From the NCBI GenBank assembly GCA_003971905.1, contig RSEE01000015.1, positions 186,001-250,000 of the forward strand: a DNA stretch of 64,000 nucleotides, given 5' to 3'. The notes beneath the pieces are model-generated. The model did not search any database, was not told the DNA's origin, and saw only the letters and a list, made by a program, of their open reading frames with translations. Position 1 is the first letter of the stretch; every line of letters begins with the position of its first letter. The stretch is from Moniliella sp. 'wahieum'. Taxonomy: Eukaryota; Basidiomycota; Moniliellomycetes; Moniliellales; Moniliellaceae. Shown in pieces: positions 2,812 through 59,056 of the stretch. Position numbers and translations under genes: made by a program.

Positions 2812-2839
2812 GCTTCAAGCTTCAAGCTTCAAGCTTCAA
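2812..2839. repeat. Heptamer tandem repeat (GCTTCAA)4
   Basis: Four exact copies of GCTTCAA. The same heptamer recurs as shorter runs at 32367-32387 and 32661-32681. Confidence 0.95.
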
Positions 2840-3628
2840 AAGCCAAACTCGATGATCGATGTCGATGATCTATGAGGCCTGAAGCCTGCGGTGACTCGGT
2901 GACTTCGATACCACAAGGCAGACCATCAGATATACGACGGTCGATAATCGATAACTAGAACTGGCCGGGAATCGGGTTAGGCCTTAGGTAAGGCCTTAGG
3001 TAGGCACATGGTGCGTAGCGGACGCGTGCGTTGCGTCGTTCCGCCCACGCCTTGCTCGATTCCGCTCTGGGCCCACGGGGTCGGTAAAGGCCAACGGAAA
3101 TGGAGGATGGTGGGGCCGGTGGGGATAGTGATGCAAGTGATGTGCGATCCGCCGTGTGATGCACATGTGATGGATGATGGGTTCAACGCGTTCAGCCTTC
3201 AACTTGAACGTTCAACATTCCTTCGCTGCATTTTCCATCGATCATCTCGGTTCTTGTCCTCTCGTCGACTGCCTTTTTCTCCTGTGACACCACCATCACT
3301 CCCAAGGCCCAAGGCCTAACCCCGCTTCATTCATACCCGCAGCATGGCCTCCTCCTCCCCTTGATCTGGTTGGCTCCGTCTTACTCGTGTCCAAGAGTCT
3401 CTCTCTCGTTCCCGTCATCGCCTCGCGCCGAGCACACCGTCCAAAGGATATATGCGTCCAACAGGGTATATATTGAGCGTTATTGAACGCGTTGATGCCA
3501 AAAACCTTTGATGTGGGCTCGAGAGCGTCCTAGGCTGGGAGACTATTACGCCAGGGTGAGCGAAAGAAGCAAGCGAGCCAAGTTTGAATCCTACCGGTGA
3601 GGCATGTGCATGACCGGATGATCTGAGG

Positions 3629-3670
3629 GCCTGTTGAGACGTTGAGGCTAACGCTTTTGCCTCAACAGGC
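3629..3670. repeat. 10-bp perfect inverted repeat
   Basis: GCCTGTTGAG (3629-3638) is matched exactly by CTCAACAGGC (3661-3670), with an alternative nested 8-bp stem GTTGAGGC/GCCTCAAC at 3641-3648 and 3659-3666. The two stems are mutually exclusive in part. It lies about 280 bp upstream of the GH79 start. Function unknown. Confidence 0.8.
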
Positions 3671-3951
3671 AGGTGCCGAGAGGCAATAGAGTTCCGACAG
3701 TGGGGTACAGAACTTACAGAGGCATTATAACGCTGTGATAACAGAGTGTGGTGCAATATAGCACAAGTGGCAGCACATATCAAAGGAGGGAGACTCCGAC
3801 TGCCTGCCAGATACGCTGGACAAGGAGCACGGAAGCATACCATCTCAAGCCACTATATCTTCCTCCTCATCCTCATCCGTCGCCAAGTGTGTGGATTACC
3901 AGCGCCCACTACCCCCATCCCCCTGTGGGCACCCCCACGTTCTCCTCCACC

Positions 3952-5664
3952 ATGTCCTTCACAATCAGACCGTCCTGCCAGCGTCGAACCCGCTGGGCCG
4001 CGCTGGCCACCGCCCTCCTCCTTTCCCCGTTGGTGCAAGGCGCGCTCACAAGCGTCAGTCTCTTCCCCAGCTGGAAGGCAAGCCATGCTGGAGCCAACCT
4101 CTCGGCTGTCCTCTTCCCGAGCTATGCCGAGATCGGGATCGAACCGAGTAACCTGCCTGCCATCGTCGGGACCGATTCCGTCAACCCGCTGACGTATGGA
4201 TGTATGGAGGCACTCCAGAACCTGAGTGGGTCATCCCCTCACGTCCGTATTGGTGGTAATACGGGTGACAATGCGCTGTGGAATTCCTCGGCAGAAGGAT
4301 ATGGGTATAGCACCAACACAGCCGCATCTGCTGGGCCCAGCTCCAGTCTTTACTTTGGCCCTGGCCTCTTCAAGGCCATTGATCGGTTGCCCCGAGATAC
4401 CCCAATCACGTTTGGACTCAATTTGGCCTACTCTGGCTCCGATGCGGTAGAGCGGATTGTAGAGACGGCCAATGCGGCCATGGATCACCTGCACAGAACG
4501 TTGACCTGGTCGGGTTTGAAGTTGGGAACGAGCCCGACTTGTACGTTAGCAATGGCTACCGCAAACCAGGCTACACAAAGCAAATGTACGGGAAGGAGTG
4601 GATCACCCGCGTAAAGGCCATCTATCGGCGCGCTCTCAAGCCCCGGGGCAAGCCGGCTGCCATGTTTGAAGCCGCTGTCACGGCCACGACGGCCAACAAG
4701 AATGGCCACCCCTACCGTGTGGTCAATTTGACCCAGGACACACATGGCGTTGGGTACAATGACAGTATGTTTGTGAAGTCACGATCTGACCTTTTTCGTC
4801 TTCTCCTATCCTAAGCTGTATTACATTAACGTCTCGAATTTCCCCATCACGTCCGACTGGTTGCTCTCTCTTCCCAATACCGTGTCGCAACTGTACGAGT
4901 GGCAACAACAGTCCTACCAGGCGTTGGACATGGGCAAACCCTACTACCTGCGCGAAATGGGTTCGATCGGTCCCGAAGGCATTAAGGGCATCTCCGACAC
5001 ATTCCGCACCACGCGCAGCATGTGCAAGTGCGGCGTCATGTCCTCGCTGGAACACATCATGTCCTGCACCCGCACCCAGGCCAAGTTTGGTGCGTTGCAT
5101 GAGGCAGTGCGGGAGCCCATTCTCCAGCTCCTCCGCTCCATCCCCGACACCCACGTCCACAACGAACCTATGGTGGAGGAAGAGGATGGGACGAGGCGCG
5201 GACGGAAGGCACAGCGCACCGATTACCGCGTGATGGGGCCCGGAGCACTGGGAGGAACCGGAATGGAGGTAGACCACACGCTGCGCGACACGGGATCGCA
5301 GGAGGCGCAGAGCGCGTACCGGCGGGTGGTGCATGAGAGCACTGCGTCGCCTTTGGAACGCCGGGAGAAGGAACTGCTTCGGCTGCTTGAACAAGCAGAA
5401 TGCGACAAGAACGCCAAGTACCAGGGACGCACTCAAGAACCGTTTTTCCCCCTGGTTTTGACGACGCGAGGATACTACGGCACCAAGACGGCGGGCAAGT
5501 TGTTCGCGCATTGGAAGGAGTTGGCTACTAAGTCTCAGTGGAAATGGTTCCTCGCTCGTATGTCAACCACGTTCCTCCGTGTCCACACGCGCTTCCTAGG
5601 GTACGGGACCGGATGGCGTGAGCCGGAGGGTCCTGATATCCTGGCGATCCCCCTGGTCCCTTAA
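3952..5664 (+). CDS. Secreted GH79 endo-beta-glucuronidase/heparanase-like enzyme, 3' end replaced by retroelement sequence
   Basis: Starts at ATG 3952 with a signal peptide (hydrophobic ALATALLLSPLVQG, cleavage likely before ALTS). The body matches fungal glycoside hydrolase family 79: HVRIGGNTGDN, the acid/base segment VGNEPDLY, and the nucleophile segment YYLREMGSIGPEGIKGISDTF. GH79 enzymes cleave glucuronides, for example on arabinogalactan side chains, outside the cell. One base is missing near 4496 (AGGAAC read as AGAAC). A short intron lies between about 4765 and 4815; its donor is uncertain. Right after SDTF (about 5004) the protein switches, in frame, to a sequence unlike any GH79: a CKCG...EHIMSC zinc-knuckle-like motif and a nuclease-like domain. 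About 150 GH79 C-terminal residues are therefore missing. Both catalytic Glu are present, but the lost C-terminal beta domain makes activity doubtful. Confidence 0.75.
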
Positions 5665-5760
5665 TCTTGGTGGCGCTACCAAGTAACCCCCGCAAGATGA
5701 ACGGTTCGGTTTAGACGTAGCGTTCCCCCTGTCCCAGCCTTAAGCTCTGTCAATGATATG
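5005..5760 (+). mobile_element. 5'-truncated non-LTR retroelement: C-terminal zinc knuckle, nuclease-like domain and 3' UTR
   Basis: The translated part (5005-5664) has a Cys-x-Cys...His...Cys knuckle (CKCG, then EHIMSC), then RTDYRV, GMEVDHTLRDTGS, AECDKNAKYQ and FFPLVLTTRGYYG. This order (Asp-x-Tyr, Glu-Val-Asp, Lys-x-x-Lys-Tyr, Phe-x-Pro...Gly-x-x-Gly) is that of the PD-(D/E)XK-like domain following the reverse transcriptase in many LINE-like elements. No RT domain is present, as expected for a 5'-truncated insertion. The 3' UTR (5665-5760) ends in TTAAGCTCTGTCAATGATATG. A diverged copy of that UTR lies at about 43739-43831, which supports a mobile origin. No target-site duplication and no GH79 remainder is found downstream, so a deletion or recombination event is also needed. 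Confidence 0.6.
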
Positions 5761-9908: not shown

Positions 9909-10016
9909 GGGCGCGACGGGGCAGACGGCGGGCAGGCCAACCAGCGGGCGGCGCCTGGCGTGTTGGGGAGCAGCCAAGCAAGTGGAGCAGCCGCCGCGGC
10001 CGGAAGCGGGTGCTGC

Positions 10017-10217
10017 TTATGTCAGCCCGCACGTGCCGTGCCCTTGGCTGGCGGAGCTGCGGGGCGGAGAGAGTGGCGAGTTGCTACGCGAGTCGATCAG
10101 TTTCGCTACGCAGAACACCAACCAACCCAGGGACCAGCAGGCTGCAACGAGAGCAAGAGCAAGAGTACGAGCATCGGTAACAGTGGCAGTAACAGTAACA
10201 GGGAAACGAATGTCCAT
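10017..10217 (-). CDS. Possible small single-pass membrane protein (66 aa)
   Basis: ATG at 10217, starting MDIRFPVTVTATV, with one hydrophobic helix (about residues 19-42, TLALALVAACWSLGWLVFCV) and a Ser/Pro-rich tail. It sits between the TVP38-type stop (10240) and the USO1 start (9908), all on the same strand. It could be a real small gene, an upstream reading frame of USO1, or chance. No homology is recognised. Confidence 0.2.
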   Translation of the reverse strand: MDIRFPVTVTATVTDARTLALALVAACWSLGWLVFCVAKLIDSRSNSPLSPPRSSASQGHGTCGLT

Positions 10218-10239
10218 CAAAATGTCCTAAGCGTGCGGG

Positions 10240-12013: not shown

Positions 12014-13142
12014 CTAGCTGGCAACAGGTCGTGGTTGGAAGCGGGACGTGCCAGGTGGCCAGGCGGCGGGAGAGGCGGATGGTGCTGCGGGGGTGGGAGG
12101 GATGCGCAGGAGGCGCAGGTGGTGGTGATGCGGACGGGGACAATCAAGTCACAGGGCACTGGGGGCATCTCTTTTCCTGCTATATCAGCATCTGCGCTAC
12201 GCCGCACAATCGGCCGAGCGTCGCGAGCTTAGCGAGCTGCGAACAGGTTGCATCCACTGCCCCCCTGCCGCGCATCAGGCGCAGGACGCTCGTTGAACAC
12301 GTTGAACATTGGACGTACGTACTTTGAACGTTGAATATTGAACGTACTTGGTTCAACATTCAACGTTCAACGTTCGCGTTCACCGGTCGCCAAGGACCAA
12401 GTACCGAGGCACAGAGCATAGGACGTCGATTGTATTCCCTGCACCCTGTCGCTTCGCCACCACACCATCACCCCGAGCCCATGCGCTCGCGTCACTAGCG
12501 CCACTCTACTTCTAGTCAAAGTAGCTTCCATCTTCACTCTTCACAAACAGCTTCTGCTCTGGGGGTCGGTTATGCTGTGGGCTGTCCTCTCTCTTTTCTT
12601 TGCCTTCACGCCTGGCTGCTCGCGAGAATGCGCTTCGCATGCAACCCATATGCAGACGGGGGAGGGCATATGTATTGTGCATGATGAGGGGAAAGAAGAG
12701 AGAAAAAAGATAAGAAAAAGAAGAGGAATTGATATGCGGGGGGTGGGCGTGGGGAGAGGGGGGACGAAGAAGGCATGTGGACGCAACTGGTATAGCGAGA
12801 CGCAGTAGCATAGACGTTGCTTTCCCAGTGGAGTGACATGGCGAATCGATGTCCGTGTGTACGATGCAGAGGATTGGAGATGATTGGAGAGGAATAGGGG
12901 TGAGGGTGGATGAGAGGAAAAGTGGAAGAAGCCGGAAAGAGGATGTGGAGAGGGTAATGGGGAAACGGGGTAGTGTTCGATGCGGAGCTCAACCCGTTAC
13001 AGAAACCAAAATAGACGGAGCAAAAGTGAGTGGAGAAGAGAAGGCGAAAAAGTCCAAGATGAATCGCATGATCCACAAGAAAAGAGGCAAAGGGGAAAGT
13101 GAGTCCGCCGCAGTCCGTGATCGGAAAGTGAGGGACCAGGGA
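12014..13142. other. Intergenic with TTGAACG/GTTCAAC heptamer block
   Basis: Upstream region of the TVP38-type gene and downstream region of the peptidase gene. Contains CGTTGAACA twice (12291-12308) and two opposed heptamer runs at 12324-12371. Long purine runs at 12640-13090 create long but unconvincing open frames. No gene supported. Confidence 0.5.
12324..12371. repeat. Opposed heptamer runs TTGAACG and GTTCAAC
   Basis: TTGAACG, TTGAATA, TTGAACG (12324-12344) are followed by GTTCAAC, ATTCAAC, GTTCAAC (12351-12371). The two runs are reverse complements of one another in register, giving an imperfect inverted repeat about 310 bp upstream of the TVP38-type start codon. Confidence 0.9.
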
Positions 13143-15009: not shown

Positions 15010-16255
15010 GAAGCCGAAGGGGCGATGGTGGGAAGGTGGAGGAGGGCGGTGCACCGCGGTAGCAGTGCTGTTGCTGCAGGTGTAGGGTACTGTAGTCGTC
15101 GCACCAAGCAAAGCCCCCCTGTGCTGAGCGGCTGAGGACGGCTACGGGGCTGCTGGAGACGGCGTGCGCATAGCGCTGTGCTCAGCAGACGGCTTGGGCG
15201 GCAGGCGGGCAAAGGCGGAGAAAGGTAAGACAGAGCTGACGCACCACCGTTGTACAATACGACGATGCCTGCCGTGTGGGCAGCAGTAGAACACGGCACC
15301 ACCATCGCCTGTCAGATCTAGACGGAAGAGGGCCACGGCCGCGTGTGTGACACTTGACGGTGACCATATGCTGCCCGAGGGCGGGCCTGCGAGGACAGGC
15401 AGAGGCTCTGCCCCGTAGTGTGCTCTCACTCAAGCTCAACGTACAACATTCGGCTCAGCGCGGTGAGCCTGGCTTGAATCGCATGGGTCACTCACTAGTC
15501 AATCATGAATTAGTCGCGATTGTTGGTGCAGCCACAGCCAGCATCAGCGCTCAGCCAGTGCTCAGCCAGCACGCAGCTCAGCAGCAGCTCCCCTTCTGCC
15601 GTGAGCGCGTGAGCCCCCCTCTATTAGGTCGCATCTGATGGTCTGGAAGGCAATGCCAAAGAGAGGCAATGCGGTCATCGAATCACACCTGTTTTTCTTG
15701 GCGTAATATATCAATGCGTCCGCGCAACATCCATCGGCTACACTTTGGAAGTAGTGTTGTGTGCGTCATCCTCTCTGTCGGGTGGCCACCTCTTCATCGG
15801 CCACTACTAATCACTCCCTTGCTGCGCAGCGCGCGCCCATCCAGTAGTGTCAGCGCGTCAGCGTCACCGTCTGCGCCGAAAGGCCGCGCCGTCAGGCTCA
15901 GGCGCTCAGGTCAGCCGGCCAGGCCGGTCATGCGGTCATCGATCAACGGCAGAGGCACTGTTGCGACGCTGACGCTGACCGTCCTCGATGACATGGCCAG
16001 TGGGTGAATATGAACGGTGAGAATGCGGACATGCCATGGGTCAATGTGACATGGAGGAGCTAGACGGCTGGTGCCGGCTGGCGCAGCCGCTAGGACCTAT
16101 GTCCTCTGCTAGGTCCCTGGGCCCAGGGTCCTCTCCGAACGGCAGTGGGGTAATTAGAAGGAAACGGGCCATATGATGCATTGAGTGACCATGAGTGTCA
16201 TGCCGTGAGCCACTCCATACAATCGTGTGGGGTTTTTGGCATTCCCATATAGTCG

Positions 16256-16684: not shown

Positions 16685-18124
16685 CCAAGGACTTGTGCAA
16701 CAGAGTAAACTGTGCACGAGAGAGAAGGGAACAGTCAGAAATGGCTTCTTATAAGTTCCTGACGCTAATAGTCCAATATTGAGAGCAACAGGGAGAAAAG
16801 GAAAGAGGGGAAGAAGGCGGGAGCGCAGCTAATGCTGCGCACGCACATGTGCGGAAAGTCGAGATGGCTTCCGCTTACCAGTGGCGTGGCCGATGAAGTC
16901 GATGGCCTGTGATGGAAGATCACGCATCCTCTAACACCCTCTGTGGTGCCCGCCATCCGTTCCCATACCCGCCGAGGAAGCGGGTGTGGAAACGGATGAA
17001 CGATGAACGTGTGGTAGACATCCGAGCGGTGAAAACTATTATCTCCATTGAGACTCAGTAGTCAATTCCTTCAATCCATTTCCCAAGCATCTTGCCTGCT
17101 GTCTTGAAGGCATAGTATCCGTTCCAGCAGGCGAAGCAGCTTATACACCTTCGAACAAAATCAGATTACTGTGTTTGTGCACTTTTGATGCTCTGTGCCA
17201 AACCCTTTTCCACAAGGGGAGAGAATGACTCTTGAGTGGTTCCGTCCGGTACTATATTATATATGTACTCGACGTTCTTGTCTTCGCATTCCACTTTTGC
17301 TCGAACAGTGGAGAAGAGAAACAAACTCCTTCTCCCAGTGTTCCGCACATCTCGTTCTTTATGTGATGGAATGATTGATGACCAACAAACTTGGTACGTG
17401 TATATGAAAGAAAGCGCTTTTCCCTTCACAGGCTGGCTCCTCTGGCCTTCGGCCCCGCCTACTGGGGATGACGGAGACATGGAGGCACCCGGATAACGCT
17501 GCCCCCATGATTCTTTCCTTGCCGATACACTGGACCACATGATTCGGTGCTCGATAATTAGATAAAGAAAATGGGGCCGAAAGGGAGGTTTTTCGGGAAG
17601 AGTGTGGTATGCTAAGCTATTTAGCATCGACTGAGAGGCGGTGATAGGCCTCGTGGCGCACCATGTCCTGCTAGACCCGGGCTTGGAAGATGGCAGACGA
17701 GGCCGGTAGAGTGGTAGATGCGGATCCATGCGGCCCCGTTGGGGGTAGAAGCGCCCAATGGGAGGTGCATCGATGTTGGATGAGAAGAGTACCAACATGA
17801 GTGTGCCTCTCCGGCATCGTCGCGGTCATAGCAAGGGGGGTGGGCCATCGGTGCAATGCATGGGATCGCATTGAATGTTGATCGATGATCCCATGCCCAT
17901 GATGCATGATTCTTCACCCTGGCAAGAGACGCGTGGCCATGTGATGGGGTGGTGTTAGCCACATCACGCGCACGTCGTGAGTGCGAGTGTGGAAGGGATG
18001 CGGATGTGATGTGGGGGCTGTGGTGGGACAAGCGATGGGCCGAAGGGGCGTTTCTTATTTGGGACGGGTGGGTGGTGGACAGGACGGTCGAAGGACAAGC
18101 GCACGACGCATTTATCAGCCACCC

Positions 18125-29364: not shown

Positions 29365-31914
29365 GTCGACCAGTCTTGTCCCCTTTCCCATTGATTCCGG
29401 CTTCCCCTTGTCCCATTCGTAGCAGTCCAACTGTCCTCACCATATATCACAGCAACCACACTTTCTCATTGTCATCTAGGATTCTTTGTCTCCTGATTCT
29501 GTCGACCTCGCACGGGCCTGTTCCCCCGGAAAACTCTATGGGCCTCCATCCATGGAAGATCCATGACCCAGACCAAACGCCAATGATAAGCGCTGAAAAG
29601 CGGTACACAATTGATCGGGTAATTGCATAGAAGCGCCCTCTCTCGTAGCCGACAGTGTTGGAAAAGAGAAATAGCGCCATGGGTGGTCGTGTTCTGCCTT
29701 TTGATTGGGGTCTTCCGCACCAGCACTGACTACCTGTGCCGCATCTTTTTTGCACGAGTAGACCAAGGCACATGGCCTACTAAGGCTGGTAGGATTTTGG
29801 CGTCTCGTGGGATCGCAGACTCTCCAGAGGTGAAGCAAGTATTTTCTTTGGTTCTGAGGTCATGAGCCGAATCAAGACAGGTGGTAATGCGACAGTTCAA
29901 TGTTCAAGGTATGATCGGTAAGTGGGAAAAAGAGACGCGAAACATGAAGTTCATGCTAGTATTAGTATAGAGGGAAAGATTGGATTCACCACCCTTGCAA
30001 AGGCTGTAAAGAAGATGGCAATGACTAGGTTTGTTTTCGTCTCTGCTGGACAATGATCTCGGGAAGAACAGTGGCTAACTGTCGCTCGAACACTAGGGAT
30101 GGACCTTTGCCTCATGTCTTTCGGGCCCACGGGCCTTTTGGATAAAGAGATCAGACTCATGACCTATTATCATCGATTAGGCGATCTTTTCCTATATGGA
30201 CTTGGGTGCCTACCGTTTCCACGGATTATGCAGGGACTCAAGGCAATGCCATACCATCATTGAACTGTACTATGCGATGCACACAGCTATAATGAGAAGC
30301 TAGATCCATTTCCGTGAGCTTAAGACACAGGTCTGCTAATGATCGCTCCTTTCACTGCAACGGTGCAGTGGTGCAATCTCTCTCATCCCCAAACAGGACG
30401 CCGGCACACAACTCGTCAGATCCCCAAAAGTCGTTCGTATAGATTAACTGTTTCTCAACCAGCATTACAAGACCATCATACCTTTCGGGCTGATCCTCTC
30501 TTCTCCCATTCATCGCAATGGCCAATAAAACAAAAAGCCGCAGTGCCTAGTGAGAGTCTCAAGATCCTTGATCCCTCTCAGTTCTCACTCTCTCACCTCT
30601 TCCTTTAAAGAAACCAACGATAGTCTTCATCATCCTCACCAATAGTGTTCATGCATCAGTATATGACATCTTGCTTTCGCCACTCATCATCTCCAAGGGC
30701 AATTGTCGGGCCCTGATCGCTCCCGTGTACATCCGCTGTGGCAATAGTCCCATCAATAAAGCAGAGAGTCATGTGGGGTGCTCGTACCGATCATTGACAA
30801 CGGATTAATCGGGTTGTTCTAGGTGGGATGAGCAAAAAGAGTGTGTCACGAGAGACATAAGAAGAATGAGAATGGAAAAGGAGAAGAAACAATCTATATA
30901 CATCTATACGTTCACCTATTTACGTCCATGTACTACCCACCAGAGGTAGCCCACCAGAGGCAGTATATACATCGAGAGGAAAAAAAGAAAGAAGGCTGAG
31001 ATGTGGGAACAGATAGTTCTGGAGCTGTGAATGAAAAAAGGTCTTGCCTTTTTATCTAGTAACTAAGGACTGTATACTATGCATGGTGAAGGCAAAGTGT
31101 TGATGTTGTCAGCAGGCCAGCACCTTTCGGTTTCGCCATCCCCTTCCAAACGTAATGTAGCGTTCGCGGATACACTGAGAGTAGTAGAGTGGTAAGTACA
31201 TGTGAACGTTCAGAGTTCAGATGAACCATCTGATCTCCAATGACAATGTACAGTAAGTTTCTTTCTCTATACTCTCAAACAACGTGTTTTGGTATACAGT
31301 CCTGCTAAAATACAGTACCCGCGTCTTGTCTGGGCAAAGGAAGATCGACTATTGATTGCGTTCCTGTTATACTTTGGGCATTTTTGTCGCATTCCGCTTG
31401 CTCCACAATCGATGCAGTTTCTTCTCCAAACGGTCCATTGCACCCCGGTGTCGTCATCTCTCCTCTCTTGTGTCACATTCCGTTACTCAACCTTGGCCTC
31501 ATCCTCTGTACTAGAGTCCCTCACAAGTATTGTGTGCACTCCTACATCTTTGCCACAGCAAACACGTCCGACCCTATCACATCTCGGCAATCCGTATGCC
31601 TTTTGCTCTGCACCCCCAACACCGCGCTTTCTGTTCTTTTTCCACAACCGGCTCATTGTGAGCATGAGTATATTCCGCACAGCAGAGCACACAAAAGCTT
31701 AGCGCACAAACTTGAGGGTTGGCTCTCGCAAGACCTCTTGCAACGCGCCAAACTTGAAGGCAATGTGACGCTGTGGCAAGGCCTTGCAGCAATAATACAG
31801 CAAAGGTATGCTTGCGTTGGAAGGCGCTAAAAAAACGATAAACGCGTTACTGTTAGAGGGTACTGCTAGGGTTCTCCTGCGCGGCCCTCAATGGATCGGT
31901 GACGCTCGCCTAGC

Positions 31915-31935
31915 CGAGCGGAAGCGTTCCGCTCG
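31915..31935. repeat. Perfect 9-bp hairpin
   Basis: CGAGCGGAA, loop GCG, TTCCGCTCG. Stable stem with a three-base loop, just upstream of the duplicated 56-mer. Confidence 0.85.
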
Positions 31936-31995
31936 CAGGCCGCGCACGCCCTGCTCGCTCCATCTCCCTTCTCTCTCTCCTTTCTCCTTCCCTTC

Positions 31996-32149
31996 AGACG
32001 TTGCTTGAAGACTTGTGGCTCACCACTTTGCCTTCACGCCTTGTCTGAAGGTACGCCTCTGCTTCCTTTCTTGACCTGTTGCTCCTCACAATGAGACGTT
32101 GCTTGAAGACTTGTGGCTCACCACTTTGCCTTCACGCCTTGTCTGAAGG
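31996..32149. repeat. Duplicated 56-bp unit
   Basis: Two identical 56-bp copies at 31996-32051 and 32094-32149, separated by 42 bp of unrelated sequence. Each begins AGACGTTGCTTGAAGACTTG and ends GCCTTGTCTGAAGG. The copies contain internal partial inverted words (CTTCAGAC/GTCTGAAG). Confidence 0.95.
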
Positions 32150-32366
32150 CTGCTTTGCAGCTGATCCATAGGATCGCGAGTGCTCTCAAGTCGCACTCTA
32201 GCAGTTACACGTTAGACGTTGAACGTTTTGACCTTAAGATCGTTGTTAAAAAGATTTTTTACACCAAAAAATCGCTCGCCCACTCAGTCTAAGTACCACC
32301 CTCAGCTGAGGGCTCAACGAACGCGCTCAACCACTCAACTCCATTGCTGGAGCGGAAGCTCTTCAC

Positions 32367-32387
32367 GCTTCAAGCTTCAAGCTTCAG
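32367..32387. repeat. Heptamers GCTTCAA x2 plus GCTTCAG
   Basis: Three consecutive 7-bp units, the third with one change. Confidence 0.9.
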
Positions 32388-32600
32388 TAACTACAGTAAC
32401 TCAGTACACTCAGTATATGTTTTCGAGATCACTCTTCGATCTGAATCTGAGATCCGTGCCTCTGTTGAATACGATCGCGCCTCGAGATCTGAGAGCTTGA
32501 AGAGCTTGAGCGCCTGAGCAGACTGGCCTGACAGCTTGAGCGTACTCGATGCAGGACTTGGGCCGGGCAAGGGTGTGGAAGGGTCCAGGAAGTTCAGGTA

Positions 32601-32681
32601 CGTTCAACGTTCAACATTCAATTTCAGGCCTTCAGGCCTGGGGCTGGCCTCAAGCTTCACGCTTCAAGCTTCAAGCCTCAA
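32601..32681. repeat. Heptamer runs CGTTCAA and GCTTCAA
   Basis: CGTTCAA, CGTTCAA, CATTCAA at 32601-32621, and GCTTCAA, GCTTCAA, GCCTCAA at 32661-32681, with duplicated 8-mers TTCAGGCC between them. Confidence 0.9.
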
Positions 32682-32724
32682 GGCCTGAGGTCTCAGGACT
32701 TGGCGTGTGTGGCATGTGCGATGA

Positions 32725-32758
32725 TCGATAATCGATAAGATGAGCATGTGACATGTGA
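32725..32758. repeat. Heptamer pairs (TCGATAA)2 and (CATGTGA)2
   Basis: TCGATAA twice at 32725-32738 (the same pair occurs at 2941-2954), then CATGTGA twice at 32745-32758. Confidence 0.9.
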
Positions 32759-32893
32759 CATGACCTCATCGATCTCAGACCTAACATGTAACGCCTACAA
32801 GGCCGACTATATATGCGCTCTATAGCAGCACATAGCGCAGCATGAGTGCATGATGCATGTGCATGAGCCATGCACTGAGCCTCAGCGCTAAGC

Positions 32894-32970
32894 CTTAGCG
32901 CTTAGCGCTACTACGCAGGCATAAGACCATTCCTGCATCCTGCATCCTGCATCATTAATCATTAATCATT
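32894..32970. repeat. Heptamer runs (CTTAGCG)2, (CCTGCAT)3, (CATTAAT)2
   Basis: CTTAGCG twice at 32894-32907, CCTGCAT three times at 32932-32952, directly followed by CATTAAT twice and a partial third at 32953-32970. Confidence 0.9.
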
Positions 32971-33196
32971 CCATTTCGCAAGTTTTGGTTGGCCAGTGGG
33001 GAAGGGCAGGGGGTGTACTGGAGGGGCCTGCTCAGAAAACGTTACGCTTTCTTTTTTATCATCACGAGCGAGAATAATCTTATTTTGGCAAAATAGACTG
33101 CTATATCTATAGCAATTGGATCCCTGTGGTGGGGTGGGAGGGCGCATAAGTTTGTCGCTCATGTGGCTTGCAGCTTGTGGCTAAGCGCTAATACAC

Positions 33197-33210
33197 GCTA
33201 CTAGCTACTA
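33197..33210. repeat. Heptamer pair (GCTACTA)2
   Basis: Two exact adjacent copies of GCTACTA, embedded in further CTACTA-like words. Confidence 0.85.
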
Positions 33211-33562
33211 TTACCTACTAATAGAGGCTACTGTATGGATCACTATAGGGTACGTAGGTTTGGGAGGCAGCTGTATTACGTCCATCGGGGAGAGAAAGGA
33301 GAGGACTGTTGGGGAGACTCCCTCCAGACAAAGCAGAGGGTATAGAGCATAGGGGCAGAGCGGAGAAGGGCACGTACGGCCTGGCCATAAGCCTTAGGTT
33401 AGGCCCTGGGAGCCAGGGAAGCTGGAAGCCGGCCGGAAGGTGATTTCGGTATGGAAAAAAAAAGCAGCATTGTGACATGCGTGACATGTGAGAGAGAGGT
33501 GGCGGAATCTAACGTGTCACAGTAGTTAACGCGTTAGCGTTTAACTATAGGACCGTAAGGAC

Positions 33563-33648
33563 CGTAACGCGTAACGCATAACCGCGTGACCGGTAACCAG
33601 GCGTAACGCGTAACGCGTAAAGTTAACCGCAACCGCGTAACGCGTAGC
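33563..33648. repeat. Heptamer cluster CGTAACG / GCGTAAC
   Basis: CGTAACG, CGTAACG, CATAACC (33563-33583); GCGTAAC, GCGTAAC, GCGTAAA (33601-33621); GCGTAAC, GCGTAGC (33635-33648). All are 7-bp units sharing GTAAC. Confidence 0.92.
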
Positions 33649-34060
33649 CTACCGTAACTCGGCACAGGTAGTGCGCTTGGGCGTAGTGCCAATCATTTAT
33701 CAGCGCATCAGCCGTCCGCGCGTCAGCGCTCAGCCGTCCAGCGTCCTGGAGTACGCAGGAGCCGGCCCCGCGCGGCGCCGCACTAGCACGGGGCTGGATG
33801 CATGTCTGAGTGCGGCGTGCACAGCTGCCCCGTCGAGACATCCGCACATGTCCAGCACCAGCAGGCAGGCACCGCCTGGCACCGCAAGCCCCGCGTGCCA
33901 GCACATGGCCAGCCTCTTGCCGAGGTGCTCGCTTCTCTTCTGCAGCGGCTCCTGCACAACACGGTTAAGCGGTTTAACCTGCTTAACGGCAGGAAGTACC
34001 AGCTGTACATAGGTACACCGGACCCTGCGTAATCGACGTAATCGGCGTATCCATGTAGTC

Positions 34061-34105
34061 GTGACCTGTGACTGGCGTGACTGGTGACCGGGTGACCCAG
34101 GTGAC
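34061..34105. repeat. Six GTGAC words at 7-9 bp spacing
   Basis: GTGAC starts at 34061, 34068, 34077, 34084, 34092 and 34101. It is the complement of the GTCAC core phased at 11 bp near 16.3 kb. Confidence 0.85.
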
Positions 34106-34600
34106 CTCGGTCTTGCGGTGGCCAGGCAGCAGTACACTTGAGCGCCTGAGCGCCTGAAGTTGGAGGGGTCCATCGGACGTCTGAGACGACAAACGACGCC
34201 CTTGGACCAAAAGGGGATGCCCGTCCTGGAGATCGGCATTGGCAAGGCTCCCTGCCGCCACCTCACCGACGCCTGTGCTTCTTCATCGGCCTGCTCCCCT
34301 CTCCTCTCGGCAGGTCTTTCTCCTGTCCTGAACCTCAGGCCTCGTATTCCTCTACCTCATCAGGCCCTTCAATATCTCCTCCCTCTTCCCTCTCAGTTTG
34401 AGTCCATCCCACCTGGTCCAAACACCCACCACCCGTTCCCCCGCCCTTGGGCCTCAGGCCTCACTAGTCAACCCCCATTCTGAACACCCAGTACTAGTTC
34501 GTACTTAGTACCCAGCACTCTGTACTCATCGGACTGATCGGTCACCTGAGCCCGTACACCCCGCTCCCTAGCGTAGGCTTAACTTGTCTGTTGCTTACGA

Positions 34601-34621
34601 CTAGTCACTAGTCACTAGCCA
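34601..34621. repeat. Heptamers CTAGTCA x2 plus CTAGCCA
   Basis: Three consecutive 7-bp units about 170 bp upstream of the forkhead gene start. Confidence 0.9.
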
Positions 34622-34786
34622 CTACTACTGGTCATCTGGTCATCCCCCGATATCCATCCGCTCGATCCACCACGTCCCTACCACCGCAAACCGTCACTTA
34701 CCCCGCTTAGCCCCTTCTTGTCCCATTACGGGTTACCGGTTACCCCTAGTAGTCATACTCCCTTGACTTTCCCCGTTCTTCCAATC

Positions 34787-36843: not shown

Positions 36844-37784
36844 GCAACCCATTCCATGCTGCGCCCCGACCTCCCTACTATAGCCATGCATGCTTTGCCC
36901 TGGCCCGGAGCAAAGAGAGGCTTTCCCTCTTTTCTGATGCCCTTGTTCCGGCTTTTCTCCGAAAGTTCTGATCTTTTGTCCAGTCTGTCTCGTACGTTCT
37001 TCTTGTTTCACGTTGGTTCCTGGTTCTTCTCTCCTATACACCACGAGGGCCTCTTTCTTTCTTATTCGCTGTTGCCGTGGGCAAGCAGCGTTATGTTTGT
37101 TGGTCTCGTTTTGGGTCTGCGACAATGACCTCACTGTTATGGCCTGCACCTTATCATCCTGTCACATATACACCGCACAATGAAAATGTCCGTTGACGTC
37201 GTCATCCACCACTTCTTCCCAGCTTCATGTAGCCACAGGTGCATAGCTAATCGAAAATGCCGGTAACAAGGTTCCGGATAGATATGTGAGGACTACGTAC
37301 GAAATTCAAGGTGGGCAAGGCCCACAAGATTGGGCACCAGAAATTTCGATTAGCCATGTGCATATAAGGGCGAGGGTTTGCTTCATGGTGTGCCACGCCA
37401 TACATTCACCTGCGACTATCAAGGCCCAAGGCTGCATGTCTATGTACACATTGACAAGCACGTCCGGTTACATCACCGTCTTCTTCCAACACCTGACTAC
37501 CTCCATAGGTGAAGAGAATTACCTACACTTTCTGTAAGATGGCTGAGGTGTCCACCGTAACGCTCCTCAGTTTCTGATCCACATCATAAAATGCATCGAT
37601 AGCCCCCCATCTCTCCGTAGTCCGTATGCTTGCGGCTTCTCCCTCTCTGCCCTTTCCCCATTGCTTGCCTAATAGCTTTGGACAGTACGCAACCAGTGCC
37701 ACATGTCACTAATGGTGGTAAAATGTGTTGACATTCATGCTGCAGTGGTGTCATTTTCTGCAGAGGGAATCCAGGCACCGGCCT
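36844..37784. other. Intergenic between convergent forkhead and CipC genes
   Basis: No gene seen. Lower GC, short frames only. Confidence 0.5.
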
Positions 37785-39780: not shown

Positions 39781-39808
39781 GGTTGCCGGTTACCTGTTAC
39801 CGGTTACC
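39781..39808. repeat. Four heptamers GGTTGCC-GGTTACC-TGTTACC-GGTTACC
   Basis: Four adjacent 7-bp units; GGTTACC is self-complementary around its central base. Related runs (ATAACCG, GTAACCG, GTAACCC) occur at 49694-49714. It lies 240-270 bp upstream of the RPS20 ATG. Confidence 0.95.
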
Positions 39809-39964: not shown

Positions 39965-40025
39965 TGAGGCTCAGGCTGAGCAGCTGCTGACATGTGACAC
40001 CCAGACCGAGTATGGCTTGAGTCAT

Positions 40026-40053
40026 GCATCATGCATTATGCATCATGCATCAG
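40026..40053. repeat. Four heptamers GCATCAT-GCATTAT-GCATCAT-GCATCAG
   Basis: Four adjacent 7-bp units, about 120 bp upstream of the FYVE-RING start. GCATCAT pairs recur at 59043-59056. Confidence 0.95.
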
Positions 40054-42135: not shown

Positions 42136-43556
42136 ACTACCTCTTTTGTAGTGGTAGCCGGTGAAGATGGGCTCCTTTTCCTAAATCGCTGGCCACCACG
42201 ACCTGTTCTGATGCCTGCCCATCCTTGAGGAACGCGAAGGTGATAAGAGGGTGAAGGCATGCGGGCACTACCATACACGTACACCTCTACTATACGCATG
42301 ATATATCCTGACCAATTCATGGTAGTTGTTCGCGGGTAGGTGTGATGGGTGGCTCACCCGCTCATCTTCTGTCGTGATATGTGACAGGGGATTTTGTACG
42401 GGGCCGCATGGCGGATGGCGGACCGTGCTAGTGCTCCAATCCTTTCGCGTCATCTCGCCAGCGTCTCATTTGCTGAGTTGTCGAGCAAGAACATTGAGAC
42501 TTCGGCCTTCTCTCCCCTGTGGTGTGGCGACGGCGAGACCAGCGATGAGATCGAGGGCTCTCCCCTCTCCCGGACCTCAAGCAGGCAGTCCGGAGGTGTG
42601 TGATGTAGGGACAGAGTTTACGAGACCGCGGTAGTAGCGTGCTCGTTGAATAAGCACATCAGGAGCACAACCATACCAAAAAGAGGGTAAGCTGAGAAAG
42701 TTATGAAGGGCTCTACTAGAGACAAACGTGGTTTGGGTGTGGTACAGAAATGTATTCATGACCAGGTAGTGGACGGCATTCGAGAGAGGGGATACGTACC
42801 GGGAAGGAGTGAAGCTTGAAGGTAATTGTAGAAAGTTTATCGCATTAGGGCAGAACGAATGGATGTGCACATGACCGCGATATAGGTGAGGGCAGTAGTT
42901 GCTTGACAATTGATACTCGACGCCCGATTCCCACTTAAACGTTAAACCCTGGGGAGGGCAGCAAAGAATAGCAGAAAGAACAGGGAGTCAGCGACCAATT
43001 CCGGTACCATGAAAACAAAGCTCAGTGAGGTAACTATTGTTCTCATTGCCGACTCAACTCTCCGAGGAGAGGAATCAGGCGTGCGAAGAGCTGGGTTAGA
43101 AGTCAGGCGTATCGCCTTTTGTCATCTTGAATGCCAGATGGGATCGGATGTAAACTTACCTGTTTAAGAGGGAGACCAAAGGGAGACAAGAGAGGCGGTC
43201 ACGAGCCGAGCCTTAATGTCGGTAGGATGCTCGTTCGACGTTCTTTGGTAATGACGATGGTGCAGAGCCACAAAACAGCTACCTGCAGCAAAAGTTTCCG
43301 TGTAGAAACGAAGTGCGGAACAGGTATGATAGAACATCAAACTCCGCCTCCGCCTCCACACGCCACATCAAGTATCGAGTCAAGTCATTCACTGGGTCAT
43401 TGACTAGTCAGTTTTAAAGCGGACGTGGAGGGTGGAGTGGAGCGGAGGTGGAAGGGTCGTGCGACGAAGTCATTGGTAACCAGTAACTGGTTCTAGTAAA
43501 GCTAGTAACTAGTACCAGTAACTCTGGTCGGTGTCTCGTCGATATTAAACCTGAGG

Positions 43557-43634
43557 GGCCTGAGGCCTGAAGCGTTGAAGCAGCTGACCAAGAGCCTCAG
43601 GAGTGACCTCACCCGTGACCGGTGAACGGTGAAC
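43557..43634. repeat. Heptamer pairs (GGCCTGA)2 and (GGTGAAC)2
   Basis: GGCCTGA twice at 43557-43570; GGTGAAC twice at 43621-43634. Confidence 0.88.
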
Positions 43635-49693: not shown

Positions 49694-49714
49694 ATAACCG
49701 GTAACCGGTAACCC
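49694..49714. repeat. Heptamers ATAACCG-GTAACCG-GTAACCC
   Basis: Three adjacent 7-bp units, reverse-complement relatives of the GGTTACC run at 39781-39808. Confidence 0.9.
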
Positions 49715-50001
49715 TCGACCATATGTAGGCGAGCGCAGAGGCGGTGGTTGGCGCGCTGGCTGAGCGCTGAGGCTCAGCACTAAGCGCTTGGAGCGGGATA
49801 ATGAGAACCAGACTGTCCGAATCCCTTGAAGATATGTTAATCGTATTCACATGATAAGTGCAAAAGTGCTGGATAAGAGCGCATGTGATGGATGATGAGG
49901 GCTAGACTAACTATGCCGTACAACTATGATCTCATCGACATCACACATGCAGTATATCTCTGGATCGAGTGGTAGGCCGTAGGCCGTATCGCTACAGGCA
50001 T

Positions 50002-50015
50002 CAACGTTCAACGTT
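50002..50015. repeat. Heptamer pair (CAACGTT)2
   Basis: Two exact adjacent copies, the GTTCAAC word in another register. Confidence 0.88.
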
Positions 50016-50444: not shown

Positions 50445-50536
50445 AGATGGAGTGCCCTATGTTAGCTGCACTAATTGGGCTCGCTTGTCGAGATGGAGTG
50501 CCCTATGTTAGCTGCACTAATTGGGCTCGCTTGTCG
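50445..50536. repeat. Exact 46-bp tandem duplication
   Basis: Units 50445-50490 and 50491-50536 are identical, each starting AGATGGAGTGCCCTATGTTA and ending GCTCGCTTGTCG. The second copy is followed by AA where the first is followed by AG. Perfect identity implies a recent event or an assembly duplication. Confidence 0.95.
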
Positions 50537-50961
50537 AACATTATAGGGTGGCGCCGCAGAGATTCATTTAGTGCATGCACACAAGACCTTTGTGCGTAGT
50601 AGGCTCGATTCCTTGCATTATAGTGCAACGTCATACATATTCGCCCGTGGTGTCGCCACATTCGCCTGCGGCGTTGTATACGCGTAGGCCATACAAGAGA
50701 AGCAAAACAACTGAAGACCACGCATCATCGATCCATCATCGGGAGATCGGAAAGTAATGCCAGTATCCAGTACCTCTGACGTAATTTTCCGTAAAGTTCG
50801 ACATCTCATTGGCTGGTGCGACATCCGTGCACAGTACAACACTTAGTTCATTAGACCATCCATCAAACGAATCACTTGAAGCTAAGGAGCTTCAACGTCG
50901 CCACCACCACCACCAGCACCATCACGCCTTCTACTATTTTCGCCCCCTGTGCCCCGCCATC

Positions 50962-55257: not shown

Positions 55258-55926
55258 GGTAGGGGCCGGCAGGGGGCGGGCAGGCAGAGCAGACGGACGG
55301 AGGAGGGGCCAGCTGGGCCGGCAGGCGGAGGAGCGGAGGTAGGAGAAGAGTGTGCGGGCACACACAGGGGGCATGGGCCTTTAGAGGCGGGGCGCTGCTC
55401 CAGGCCGAGGGGATGCGCTCTCGCTGGAGCGTTTCTGCGGTGGCGAGGCCGGCTGACTCGACCGACTCAGACGCTGCCGAACGAAGACATGAAAAAGCCG
55501 GCGGTTACGCAGTTACGTGGTTACGTCAGGCTGTCACCCATCTACGTCATACGCACTTGATTCCGCACCCACACCACACTGCACCCACCAAATAGGAGCT
55601 ATGTCAGGCCTCCCTCAGGCCTCAGGCTTGAGAATCGAAACAGCAGCAAAATGCATCGGAAACAAGAGACAGGTTCACATGCGACAAGAGGAGATATACG
55701 AAGGCGATATACAAAGGCGATATACGAAAGCGTTCAGATGAGGGGGCAACCCATCAACAAGGGGACGAGGCGACGGGAGGCCAAGAAGTGATAGCAGGGT
55801 ATCGACCAGGAGGGATAAGCGGGCGAACAGGGGTGGGGAAACAGTCTTGCTTTAAATGGCGAAAAATTAAAAGTTCTTGCAGTAAACGGACATCAGATCA
55901 GTCGTCGACAGAGGGACAAGCCACAG
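55258..55926. other. Intergenic between VMS1 5' end and F-box 3' end
   Basis: Same-strand spacer holding the VMS1 promoter. Repeated GTTACG words (55503-55527) and a repeated CGATATAC(A/G)AA unit (55690-55735). No gene seen. Confidence 0.5.
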
Positions 55927-58322
55927 TTAGGCCCCCAGAAGGATCGGCGTTTCCTGCCCAGGGAGCCGATCCGCCTGTCCCTGGGCTGGCAGGGGGGTCG
56001 GAGCGGCCGACGCACCTGCCTGGTGGGATGGGCGCGGGATTGAATAGGTATCCACGTCCATAGGGGAAAGGACGGTGCGGGAAGACAAGGCCCGGGCTGC
56101 AGCAGAGGGGTCGACAGCCAACAAGGCAGACGAGGCCAAGTCCCATACCTGTACCACCGCATGTCGAGCAGGGTGGCCATCGACCCGGACGCTGAACAGG
56201 TAGGCTGCGCTGGGCGTCAGGGCCACCGCAGCGCAAGGTCGACCGGGCAGGATGCCGTACAGGCGCTGGAACATGCGATCCTGAGCGGCACGGTAGAGCG
56301 ATAGGCTTAAGTCGGTCGCGGCGGCCTGACCCTCGGCATCGGGGTTGAGGGTAAATTGGCGCACCTTGCCCTTGGGCCCAATGTCTTCCTTCACCGTCCC
56401 AGCCGCCATGGCGCGCAGAGCAGCCAAGGGAGCCGGTGCCAACCCCGATGGCGGCGAGATACCGAGCGCGACGCCCGTCGGGAGACCGAGGCAAACGAAG
56501 GACGCCGCGACAAGGGTTGCATCGAGGGGCGACGCTGCGTCATAGCTAGCGCCAGAGTTGAGGCTGCAGGGCCGGGAGTAGGGGGCGCAGTGGTACGCCC
56601 GGAGGGGGCAGGTGCCAAGGGAAGGGGCGTTGGTGCCGACGGAGGGGGGCAGGCCGAGATAGGCGCAAAGGGGACGGGACAGTTGGTCTTGGGTCCAAAG
56701 GGCCGCTTGGCCGCACTCATATCCAGCACGCGAACTTGGCTGGGACTGACAGCATTTTGATAGTCCACAAGCAGTGTGCGCCCGGTAGAGAGAAACGTAC
56801 AGCCCCCGGCCGTCGCACAGAGATAGCTGAGCGTGGCCTGCCCCAGGCCAGTGAGTTGGCACGCCACCAGACTCGTCATCAGTACCGAAATCCAGCATCG
56901 CCACCAAAGGCGGCGATGGCGCGGACGCTTCGGACCTGTCATCTTCTTCGTCCCCCTCTGCTTTATTAAGGGAACTGAAGAGGGAGGAACAGCCTCGAAT
57001 AATCAGAACCCCACGGCCAGTGGCGATCAAGATCGCATCGTTTGTGGCGTCACGAGCAAAGACAGTATCCAATGGGGTCATGCGACCGACAGGAGGACCT
57101 TGAACAATCCGTGCCTCTGGGGCCATCTCGGACGAGGCAGGGGGCGAATCGAAAACAGCTGCCCAAACGGTAGGGTCGGAACCAAGGAGCGAGCCAGAAG
57201 CAGTGGCTTCTCCAAGGGACCACACCAACTTGGCCGCCTCCCCTTGCTTCTGGGGACGACGGATGACAAAAAGATCATCCCAAGTAGCAGGCGGCCAACC
57301 TTGCCTACCAAAGGGGAGGAGAGTAGCAGAAAGGTAAATATACTGGTCGTCATAGTCAAACGACCGGGGCGTGAAGGTCCCCAGAGCAGGCGAGAGCGTG
57401 TCGGCAACGAGAATGGTATTGGTGCACTCCATGCTCTCCAGGTCCCATTCGACAAACGTTCGCCCCCCGGCCAAGATGGCAGCCGAAGTGGCATGTGTTT
57501 TCAGCATGTTGTGGTAGCTGTGTTCCAGCCCCTCGGGCATGGGAAGTTCCCCTATGTGTACAAAGTAGCCGCGTTGACCAGACGCATCGTGGGCACGGAA
57601 GACGTCGAGTTGGCACGTATCCAAGCCCCAGACATGAGAAGTGAGAATGAACTGATCACCATCCGAGTCAACAGAAGCGACGAGGGGGGAAGTGGGAGCC
57701 TGGTCTGCAGCGGCAGCCAGCGTGTCATTGTCCAGCTGCGCAGGAGGGGCGGGAGGCGGGGCACCCCAGAGAAGCTCTTGGGACTGGGTGTCTACGACCC
57801 AGGCGTCGCCTTGGACACCCGGCACCAACAGGGCCTGGTGGCGGGGTAAGGGAAGGATGTGGCGTTGGAGGCGGTTGCGAGCAATGCACTCACGAAACGT
57901 GGCAACAAGCTCCTCCGACGGGCCTCCAATGGTTGCATCGGAGGGCTGAGGGCCATAGAGCGAGACAACATGACGGACCGCCGGCAACGGAACAGGGACG
58001 CGGGCGTTGCGGGCAAGGCCAGTACCCCACTGGCGGGCTAGGGCGTGGCGGAGGGAAACGAGGGTGCGCCAAGAGCGAACAGAGGCAAAAGCACCGGTCT
58101 CGTCGTGCTCACGGATGCAGGCTTGGGGGCCTTGGGCGGGGGCGGACGGGGGGGGAGGAGGTGGTGGCGCTTGGCGATTTGGTACCAGACAGGCTCGGAC
58201 AGGGCAATGGCGTACCAGGCCTTGGAGACACGAGCAGCAACCGCCACGTCGGCGGGGGACAGCACACCGCAGGCGAACACGTCGCAGGCAACGTCAAAGG
58301 GGAGTGCGCTGAGCACGTCCAT
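55927..58322 (-). CDS. F-box protein with beta-propeller-like C-terminal region
   Basis: ATG 58322 (MDVLSALPFDVACDVFACGV). The N-terminal F-box is clear: LPFDVACDVFACGVLSPADV, AAVARVSKAWYAIALS, EPVWYQIAKRH. It should bind Skp1 and present a substrate to an SCF ligase. The remaining 700 residues are strand-rich with propeller-like phrases (LLWGAPPPAP..., FILTSHVWGLDTCQL, DDQYIYLSATLLPF, AVVQVWDLASSALLAVDPS), the last close to a WD repeat. A possible VIRRP and acidic insert lie in the middle. One frame break near 58045. The substrate cannot be predicted. No good match to a named fungal F-box protein is recognised. Confidence 0.75.
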
Positions 58323-58473
58323 GGGTCTTGCGAGTGGCGCCGAGAGGCGATGCGGGAGAAAGCAGAGGGAGGGATGTGGACGAGAAAAAGGAAATGTCGA
58401 GAGGCTTGGGGCGCTCTTTTCTTTTATTGCCACCGCAGCCCCGTTGCGCCCAGATTGGGCCGAATTGGGGGAT

Positions 58474-58529
58474 GATCGATGATCGATGATGCATGATGCG
58501 TGATGTATGATGTATGATGTGTGATGCAT
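58474..58529. repeat. Eight-unit degenerate heptamer array GAT(C/G)NNT
   Basis: Units in order: GATCGAT, GATCGAT, GATGCAT, GATGCGT, GATGTAT, GATGTAT, GATGTGT, GATGCAT. Period is exactly 7 bp over 56 bp while bases 4-6 vary. It lies 150-210 bp upstream of the F-box gene ATG. Confidence 0.95.
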
Positions 58530-59042
58530 GATGGGCCCGGCGCTGCCCGGCCTCACCCGACCAGATAACCGGCGGGTGCTGGCTGGCGTCAGTGGGCCAG
58601 TGCCGCTGCATCCACCAACATAAACGCCGAAGCGTGGGCGTGCGTGCGTGGGGCCAGGGCGCAGCAGCCGAGGAGCCGAGGAGCCCCGCCTGGGCCTGTT
58701 CTTGATTCCACACGGTCGCTGGCCCGTCGCAGGCCGCAGCTGGCCCACTGTGGCATCTTCCGCCCGCCGGTCCCAGCCACTGACCAGCCCCCACGCACAG
58801 GTCACCGGTCACACCAGTGCGCTCTAGTGCCCCACCACCGCGCCACCCTCCCCGCCCTTTGGTGCGGCTGAACCCGGCTGAATAGCAGGCCTGAGCGCCT
58901 GAACTGCTGAGCCTCAGCCGCACCGTCCTCCCTCAGTGCCTCAGCGCCTCAGCTGCAGGCTGCACTGGCTCACCGGTCCCAGCCTCGAGCACACAGCGCT
59001 AGCACAGTGCCCCTCCTGCCACGCCACCCGGCAGTCCACCAT

Positions 59043-59056
59043 GCATCATGCATCAT
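59043..59056. repeat. Heptamer pair (GCATCAT)2
   Basis: Two exact copies followed by GCATCGC. Confidence 0.88.

Follow-up and report, generated by a model that had tools for sequence, protein, structure and literature searches.

Why should short tandem repeats spelled in many different words share a step of 7 base pairs (bp)? The question is raised by a 64,000-nucleotide stretch of Moniliella sp. 'wahieum' (contig RSEE01000015.1, positions 186,001 to 250,000, forward strand; hereafter the window), in which such heptamer runs lie mostly between genes. We found that their primary product is a 12-mer of the form pqTNA-q'p'-pqTNA, where p and q are the first two bases and q'p' is the reverse complement of pq: a 5-nucleotide (nt) direct duplication with two inverted nucleotides in between. 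We examined 304 kb of one genome, comprising two haplotype pairs (C15, the window contig, versus C39, and C64 versus C90) and four other contigs (40 kb); 174 kb of this sequence served for counts intended as non-redundant, and the remainder of the 69.5-Mb genome was covered by pattern counts only, for two arm pairs and one accidental pattern. Coding status was judged only from open reading frames (ORFs), homeolog matches and haplotype changes. Long ORFs are those of at least 250 amino acids from stop to stop in all frames, and they cover 29,192 of the 64,000 window bases (46%).

Seven-base-pair repeats and their dyad form

We compared run counts at neighboring periods in the window, with the chance level taken from 30 order-3 Markov shuffles. 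Runs with at least p period-p matches number 43 for period 7 (4.0 expected), 71 for period 6 (14.8 expected) and 8 for period 8 (0.7 expected). At 10 or more matches, there are 16, 6 and 2 runs for periods 7, 6 and 8, respectively, where 0.0, 0.03 and 0.13 are expected. Period-7 runs lie outside long ORFs in 39 cases and inside in 4, period-6 runs in 36 and 35, and period-8 runs in 6 and 2; for the runs with at least 10 matches, the corresponding figures are 13 and 3, 3 and 3, and 1 and 1. Period 7 is distinguished by run length, by its excess over chance and by its non-coding placement, not by the count of two-copy runs. As 36 period-6 and 39 period-7 two-copy runs lie outside the ORFs, the statement in the first-pass annotation that the unit is exactly 7 holds for the longer runs (at least 10 matches) but fails for two-copy runs, among which period 6 is equally common. 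The excess of 7-bp units that it reported was borne out and recurs elsewhere in the genome, with 41 runs in C39 (3.4 expected), 43 in C64 (3.1 expected), 53 in C90 (5.3 expected) and 16 in the four other contigs (2.4 expected). It survived a unit-length histogram run on the 304 kb rather than on the whole genome, and Tandem Repeats Finder (TRF) recovered the annotated repeat coordinates.

The repeat words had been described as unrelated, but 12 of the 16 that were fully spelled out are rotations of a single form, NNTNANN with self-complementary ends. Two others, CCTGCAT and GCTACTA, have complementary 2-nt arms about a different center, and TGACGGG and GGTGAAC are without complementary arms. 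Dyad-symmetric units such as CTTCAAG, GTTCAAC, GGTTACC, CGTAACG, CATCATG and AGTCACT make up 28 of the 43 period-7 runs in the window (10-13% for random units), and 26 of these 28 have T and A around the center. The same form is found in C39 (29 of 41 units, 27 with T and A), C64 (17 of 43, all 17), C90 (26 of 53, 25) and the other contigs (6 of 16, 5). The 15 window runs without a dyad remain ordinary tandem repeats within the 7-bp class. No dyad excess is seen at the odd periods 5, 9, 11, 13 and 15 (none of the 39 period-9 runs from the five data sets is dyad-symmetric); for the even periods the scoring rule was looser, and beyond period 6 they have few runs.

We also considered dispersed TNA palindromes as a separate feature. 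They are enriched in the raw window, but with short tandem repeats masked they occur at 0.74-1.33 of expectation (arms of 3-5, three data sets), the highest ratios being those of C90 and the other contigs. The candidate was thus rejected, and the dyad symmetry belongs to the repeats.

The 5-2-5 rule in the genome and between haplotypes

The window contains 62 12-mers of the form pqTNA-q'p'-pqTNA, compared with 0-2 in 20 Markov controls. When NNTNA is directly repeated two bases apart, the spacer is q'p' in 160 of 228 cases (174 kb, both strands), whereas other 5-mers repeated at this distance have it in 96 of 1,484 (6.5%; chance 6.25%). One inverted base between NNTNA repeats is not enriched (21 of 65, chance 25%), nor are three (2 of 76). 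The inverted excess is one-sided: it concerns the NN side, and the reverse complement of the last two bases forms the spacer in only 24 of the 228 repeats. Among 30 TNA-dyad runs with exactly five period-7 matches, 24 are in 5-2-5 phase in either orientation, where a uniform distribution would give about 10. A fixed unit boundary in arrays generally was rejected, with longer runs varying in phase and only these minimal runs obeying it.

The central triplet is required, with 6.4-11.9 products per 1,000 NNTNA sites across five data sets and 0.00-0.74 for the other six center classes; where neither T nor A is present at the center, 0.02-0.03% of sites carry a 12-mer. The middle base roughly tracks site composition (6.5, 9.0, 6.9 and 4.2 products per 1,000 sites for A, C, G and T), and copy-to-copy differences within units are not concentrated there. 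Isolated 12-mers are found on both strands. Fifteen of the 16 possible arm pairs occur. Arms consisting entirely of A and T yield less (4 arrays from 2,263 sites versus 90 from 10,617 others), as expected if a two-base stem must pair; mixed arms gave 61 arrays on 6,534 sites (9.3 per 1,000) and G/C-only arms 29 on 4,083 (7.1 per 1,000).

The duplication spans 6 or 7 nt in minor forms, which have one or two bases following TNA and keep the two inverted bases. The spacer ends in q'p' in 24 of the 76 repeats at a gap of 3 and in 24 of the 74 at a gap of 4, and TNA directly follows pq in 19 of 28 6-nt and 12 of 16 7-nt variants containing TNA. In the window, 8- and 9-bp repeats that contain the same kind of NNTNA word plus one or two additional bases were noted at 34083-34106, 15896-15910 and 58938-58953; some of them represent the minor 6+2 and 7+2 forms.

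We next consider the whole genome, where counts are summed over both strands, a long array gives several matches and one array may match on both strands. The pattern CTTNAAGCTTNA matches 11,845 times and its reversed control 18 times, and GCTNAGCGCTNA matches 2,788 times versus 77. Reversing another pattern to obtain its control produced a third one, TNATCGATNATC, which spells a GATNATC array and has 7,650 matches. For the arm pairs counted, the products occur on a genome-wide scale. A wrong spacer yields 77 matches versus 64 reversed. With nine letter combinations each, centers whose first letter is not T give 1,333 versus 748 and centers whose third letter is not A give 1,721 versus 1,115. 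The A-N-T center has 180 matches, without a clean control because its reversed form is a TNA array, and the one three-base-arm pattern tried has 28 versus 0. The rule pqTNA-q'p'-pqTNA is established for this genome.

Haplotypes differ by the same units. Insertions or deletions (indels) of 7 bp number 16 between C15 and C39 and 24 between C64 and C90, compared with 8 and 9 of 8 bp and 14 and 19 of 6 bp; the single-nucleotide polymorphism (SNP) divergence between haplotypes is 2.5-3.2%. On one strand, many of the 7-bp indels read as a short allele L-pqTNA-R and a long allele L-pqTNA-q'p'-pqTNA-R. Exact fits to the rule were found in 17 of the 40 (8 of 16 and 9 of 24), and 12 of the 17 have TNA. 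In 9 of these 12, as judged by eye, the bases following pqTNA in the short allele differ from q'p', and the inverted pair is thus not part of the direct copy. Compared with C39, the 35 window arrays are identical in 8 cases, differ by 7 or 14 bp in 6 and are otherwise different in 21. The respective numbers are 8, 8 and 19 for the 40 C39 arrays against the window (5 not alignable), 13, 5 and 11 for the 40 C90 arrays against C64 (11 not alignable) and 12, 7 and 16 for the 35 C64 arrays against C90; the differences were measured between flanks and are not necessarily whole units. These comparisons show that array lengths changed after the haplotypes split.

A proposed micro template switch and its alternatives

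On balance, an intrastrand template switch of very small extent, in other words a micro inverted triplication, probably gave rise to each unit. We infer that a DNA 3' end, possibly at a nick, would be located just after a TNA triplet (...pqTNA-3'). Five nucleotides would fray and the strand would fold back with TNA as the loop, allowing a polymerase to add two nucleotides copied from pq (q'p') and to generate a 7-nt mini-hairpin. Synthesis would then resume on the original template at p, copying pqTNA a second time. The result would be pqTNA-q'p'-pqTNA, a 7-bp insertion with NNTNANN as its dyad-symmetric unit. As the product would keep its own TNA, the same site could be hit again or slip, giving rise to arrays of several units, and the haplotype polymorphisms would have been made by insertion rather than by deletion of old units. 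The earlier proposal of one generating mechanism behind many words is supported, as is its guess of a template-switch or repair footprint.

Several observations weigh against this template-switch mechanism. Centers of the C-N-G, G-N-C and A-N-T type have next to no products although they should pair as well or better, and the TNA requirement thus cannot reflect mere pairing. Dyad units of 9 bp are absent or rare, although three-base stems should be more stable, and G/C-only arms do no better than mixed ones. The minor forms place one or two bases after TNA, so that a T-A closing pair is not needed there. TNA 7-mers also recur 8-31 bp apart above controls, which the simple model does not predict. 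Among the indels, 5 of the 17 that fit have another triplet, and control rules fit 3 (reverse), 9 (complement) and 6 (identity) of the same 40, making this test noisier than the sequence test; the two haplotype pairs align with each other only in gene-like pieces, which gives the indels no polarity. No enzyme, nick or intermediate is seen in the sequence data.

The strict TNA and the fixed number of two bases go beyond what pairing explains and suggest a TNA-reading enzyme. We tentatively raise the possibility that the genome carries a dedicated micro-insertion activity, in which an enzyme would recognize T-N-A, nick beside it and drive a fixed two-nucleotide fold-back copy. If true, any NNTNA could be converted to a 7-bp dyad unit and then amplified, and part of the intergenic DNA of this lineage would be the output of a generator of palindromic heptamers that is triggered by sequence and fixed in size. 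Such a class of endogenous mutator would be unlike slippage, transposition or known template switching. A nickase that recognizes TNA, whether dedicated or domesticated, may alternatively do no more than start each event and leave the remainder to ordinary repair synthesis, either as a sub-case of the template switch or as a distinct system. The strict T and A, a middle base that roughly follows composition and the position of TNA directly after pq in most 6- and 7-nt variants would all be in line with it; no gene has been identified and no search for one was made, and we consider this version distinctly unlikely.

The number two is better accounted for by the footprint of a hairpin-ended double-strand break, which also agrees with the two inverted nucleotides kept in the minor 6- and 7-nt duplications. 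Here, a nuclease or transposase would cut with a 5-nt stagger, fill-in would duplicate pqTNA, and one flank, sealed as a hairpin and reopened two nucleotides off its tip, would leave q'p' as two P-nucleotides. P-nucleotides would be expected at both ends, however, whereas the excess is confined to the NN side, and a target word off the center of its own duplication would be unusual; this origin appears rather unlikely to us. A 7-bp target duplication of an inverted-end element was considered as a source and dropped: a search of the 304 kb for elements measuring 50-6,000 bp, with inverted ends of 14 bp (at most 2 mismatches) and 7-bp direct repeats, gave none. The same search with 4-, 5- and 6-bp duplications returned 82, 18 and 9 raw hits. 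An NNTNA direct repeat on either strand is present near the ends of 4 of 12 large haplotype-specific insertions, but two of these (window 31850, C90 37438) are solo long terminal repeats (LTRs) whose target duplications are other words; the remaining two are at C39 3001 and C90 13765. The 7-base integrase or nuclease stagger suggested by the first-pass annotation is not supported by the phase of the minimal runs, where 5 nt are duplicated and the remaining 2 nt inverted.

Three further candidates fail to explain the pattern: plain slippage, regulatory motifs and LTR integration. Micro- and minisatellite slippage produces tandem units and copy-number polymorphism. The heptamers share both, and multi-copy arrays together with haplotype length differences of 7, 14 and 21 suggest that slippage acts on existing units. 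As their origin, replication slippage favoring 7 is very improbable: it makes a purely direct copy and can neither create a two-base reverse complement nor require one central triplet, so that spacer complementarity and TNA dependence already contradict it, and odd periods other than 7 lack a dyad excess. Still less probable are selected binding sites for a dimeric protein needing palindromes repeated 7 bp apart, a spacing requirement also suggested earlier. The arrays are mostly intergenic, as such sites might be, but the cost of frameshifts alone would exclude 7-bp insertions from genes; with 15 of 16 arm pairs occurring, no sequence is read except T-N-A, and beyond short tandem repeats there is no clear enrichment of TNA palindromes. 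Traces of LTR-retrotransposon integration have almost no probability in our judgment. Two abundant LTR families do make 5-bp target duplications, and two local solo LTRs lie at GTTAC and CTCAG. Among 14 clear duplications at other copies, however, the NNTNA form is found in 2 (TTAGT and TTACC, on the reverse strand) and never on the forward strand, which is about chance and contradicts a shared site preference. These 14 come from 9 of 10 copies of family 1 and 5 of 10 of family 2; of the rest, two family-2 copies were misread and three were unmatched.

We compared the proposed micro template switch with systems that work in a similar way. Hairpin-forming transposases act through a hairpin-ended break, as does V(D)J joining, and two inverted nucleotides are the feature in common with the heptamers. 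P-nucleotides of V(D)J joints are usually two inverted nucleotides at a joint (PMC3528771). The heptamers differ by their fixed 5-nt duplication and off-center TNA, and no element was identified in the 304 kb. Intrastrand template switching has been described as making perfect stems in one event: the nascent strand adopts a hairpin, serves as its own template for a reversed copy and then returns, with four free switch points setting the outcome (PMC8794818). The same course is proposed here. The adjacent reverse-complement copy is seen in the q'p' spacers and the return to the original template in the 5-2-5 phase, and a copy made in one event may be reflected in the fitting indels, which are without polarity. 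The length and position of the copied part, by contrast, do not vary: the inverted part is two nucleotides rather than one or three, TNA makes up the loop and synthesis resumes at p, in an event repeated across the genome. Loss of FEN1/Rad27 has been linked to small inverted triplications (DUP/IN/DUP), and of the two routes put forward for them in Rad27-deficient yeast, one involves a 3' flap that folds back and then switches back to its template (PMC13334657). Their order is that of pqTNA-q'p'-pqTNA. Their sizes are not, with medians of 148/160/148 bp, 30-bp spacers and 6-bp junctions, duplications of 7 bp to >10 kb and inverted parts of 20 bp to several kb (PMC13334657), compared with 5/2/5 and a 3-nt loop here. 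The heptamer process thus works like a template switch or an inverted triplication but is not a member of either class. Among the open-license entries listed, we found no description of the pattern by title or start of abstract.

The signature is strict enough for one sequence rule to predict its product, and its genome-wide copy number is very high. It provides a natural, still polymorphic record of apparently the smallest template switches, single events of which would be too short to reveal themselves, and with it a means to study how a nascent 3' end folds, self-primes and returns. Palindromic repeat arrays would thereby have an origin that needs no selection, which calls for caution when motifs are searched for in such genomes. 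A specific enzyme, if one is responsible, would amount to an endogenous mutator of a new kind.

Arrays, mobile elements and other features

Only 4 of the 35 window arrays lie in long ORFs, although these cover 46% of the sequence. Homeolog-aligned blocks, which amount to just 5.8 of 64 kb and 5.7 of 70 kb, contain 0 of 62 and 1 of 66 12-mers, and stretches that appear coding by their haplotype changes, only 9.7 of 134 kb, contain 0 of 75 arrays. The densest cluster (32368-34744) is a 2.4-kb intergenic stretch with 13 of the 35 arrays in many different words, and the process thus clusters. It begins with a CTTCAAG array (32368-32386), followed by GTTCAAC (32602-32615), CTTCAAG (32662-32675), adjoining GATAATC and TGTGACA arrays that were counted once (32727-32760; C39 lacks one GATAATC unit), GCTTAGC (32895-32906) and AATCATT (32952-32970). 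An isolated 12-mer GCTAA-GC-GCTAA (33180-33191, plus strand), two CGTAACG arrays (33563-33576 and 33602-33620) and an isolated GCTGA-GC-GCTGA (33723-33734, minus strand) come next. CCTCAGG (34452-34463) lies in a region 7 bp longer than in C39, where the inserted bases depart from the rule at two positions, and AGTCACT (34603-34616) and GGTTACC (34731-34744) complete the cluster.

Upstream, we located a CATCATG array (1267-1280), four copies of CTTCAAG (2812-2839; 14 bp longer than in C39), GATAATC (2943-2954) and GTTCAAC (12360-12371), as well as the isolated minus-strand 12-mers CCTAA-GG-CCTAA (2977-2988) and GCTGA-GC-GCTGA (15544-15555). GATCA-TC-GATCA and CATGA-TG-CATGA, one array in our count, lie within a long ORF (17879-17909). 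Downstream, the clearest single difference in the window is TGTCA-CA-TGTCA (39988-39999, minus strand), which reads TGTCA alone in C39. The minus strand also carries GGTAA-CC-GGTAA (39797-39808; region 14 bp longer than in C39), an isolated CTTCA-AG-CTTCA (42810-42821) and GTTTA-AC-GTTTA (42936-42947; one unit fewer than C39). Further arrays are CATCATG (40022-40052), CCTGAGG (43559-43570), GGTAACC (49695-49713), GTTCAAC (50001-50012) and CCTCAGG (55613-55626), and the plus strand has an isolated GCTGA-GC-GCTGA at 49759-49770. GATGATC and CATGATG arrays are within a long ORF (58471-58533, counted as 58471-58498 and 58522-58533), as is the start of an isolated GGTCA-CC-GGTCA (58800-58811, plus strand). 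A CATCATG array (59044-59057; region 7 bp shorter than in C39) and an isolated TCTCA-GA-TCTCA (59519-59530, plus strand) are the last. A perfect 46-bp tandem duplication (50445-50537) has one copy missing in the C39 alignment.

The solo LTR at 31850-32204 (TGTTAGAG...CTCTAGCA, duplication GTTAC) is absent from C39, and its parent element has at least 40 close copies, several of them paired about 4.2 kb apart. We had considered this 353-bp insertion as a miniature element with a TTA duplication, which the copy pairs and 5-bp duplications reject. A solo LTR of the second family (L023:2360-2563, C90:247030-247233) has the ends TGTCAG...CTGACA and is about 196 bp long; two copy pairs about 2.5 kb apart suggest a short element, and together with the TG...CA ends they led us to reject the 204-bp C90 insertion as a TCA-targeting element. 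The inverted ends GCTAATCGAAA(TTTC) are common to a small insertion (window 37245-37355) and a 5.4-kb insertion with apparently a TA duplication (C64 ~94952-100342), which may represent a mariner-like element and a shortened derivative of it.

Aligned pieces are about 85-98% identical inside each haplotype pair, and between the two pairs only gene-like pieces are alike (about 74-83%); as a side reading, this would fit a diploid with an old duplication or a hybrid origin. Finally, 5.8S ribosomal RNA (rRNA) genes are located near several contig ends (C2, C21, C33, C83, C103 and C178, at base ~1,300-2,800, and others) with scores that vary from 120 to 149 bits, and the ribosomal DNA units thus seem to be dispersed and some of them diverged.

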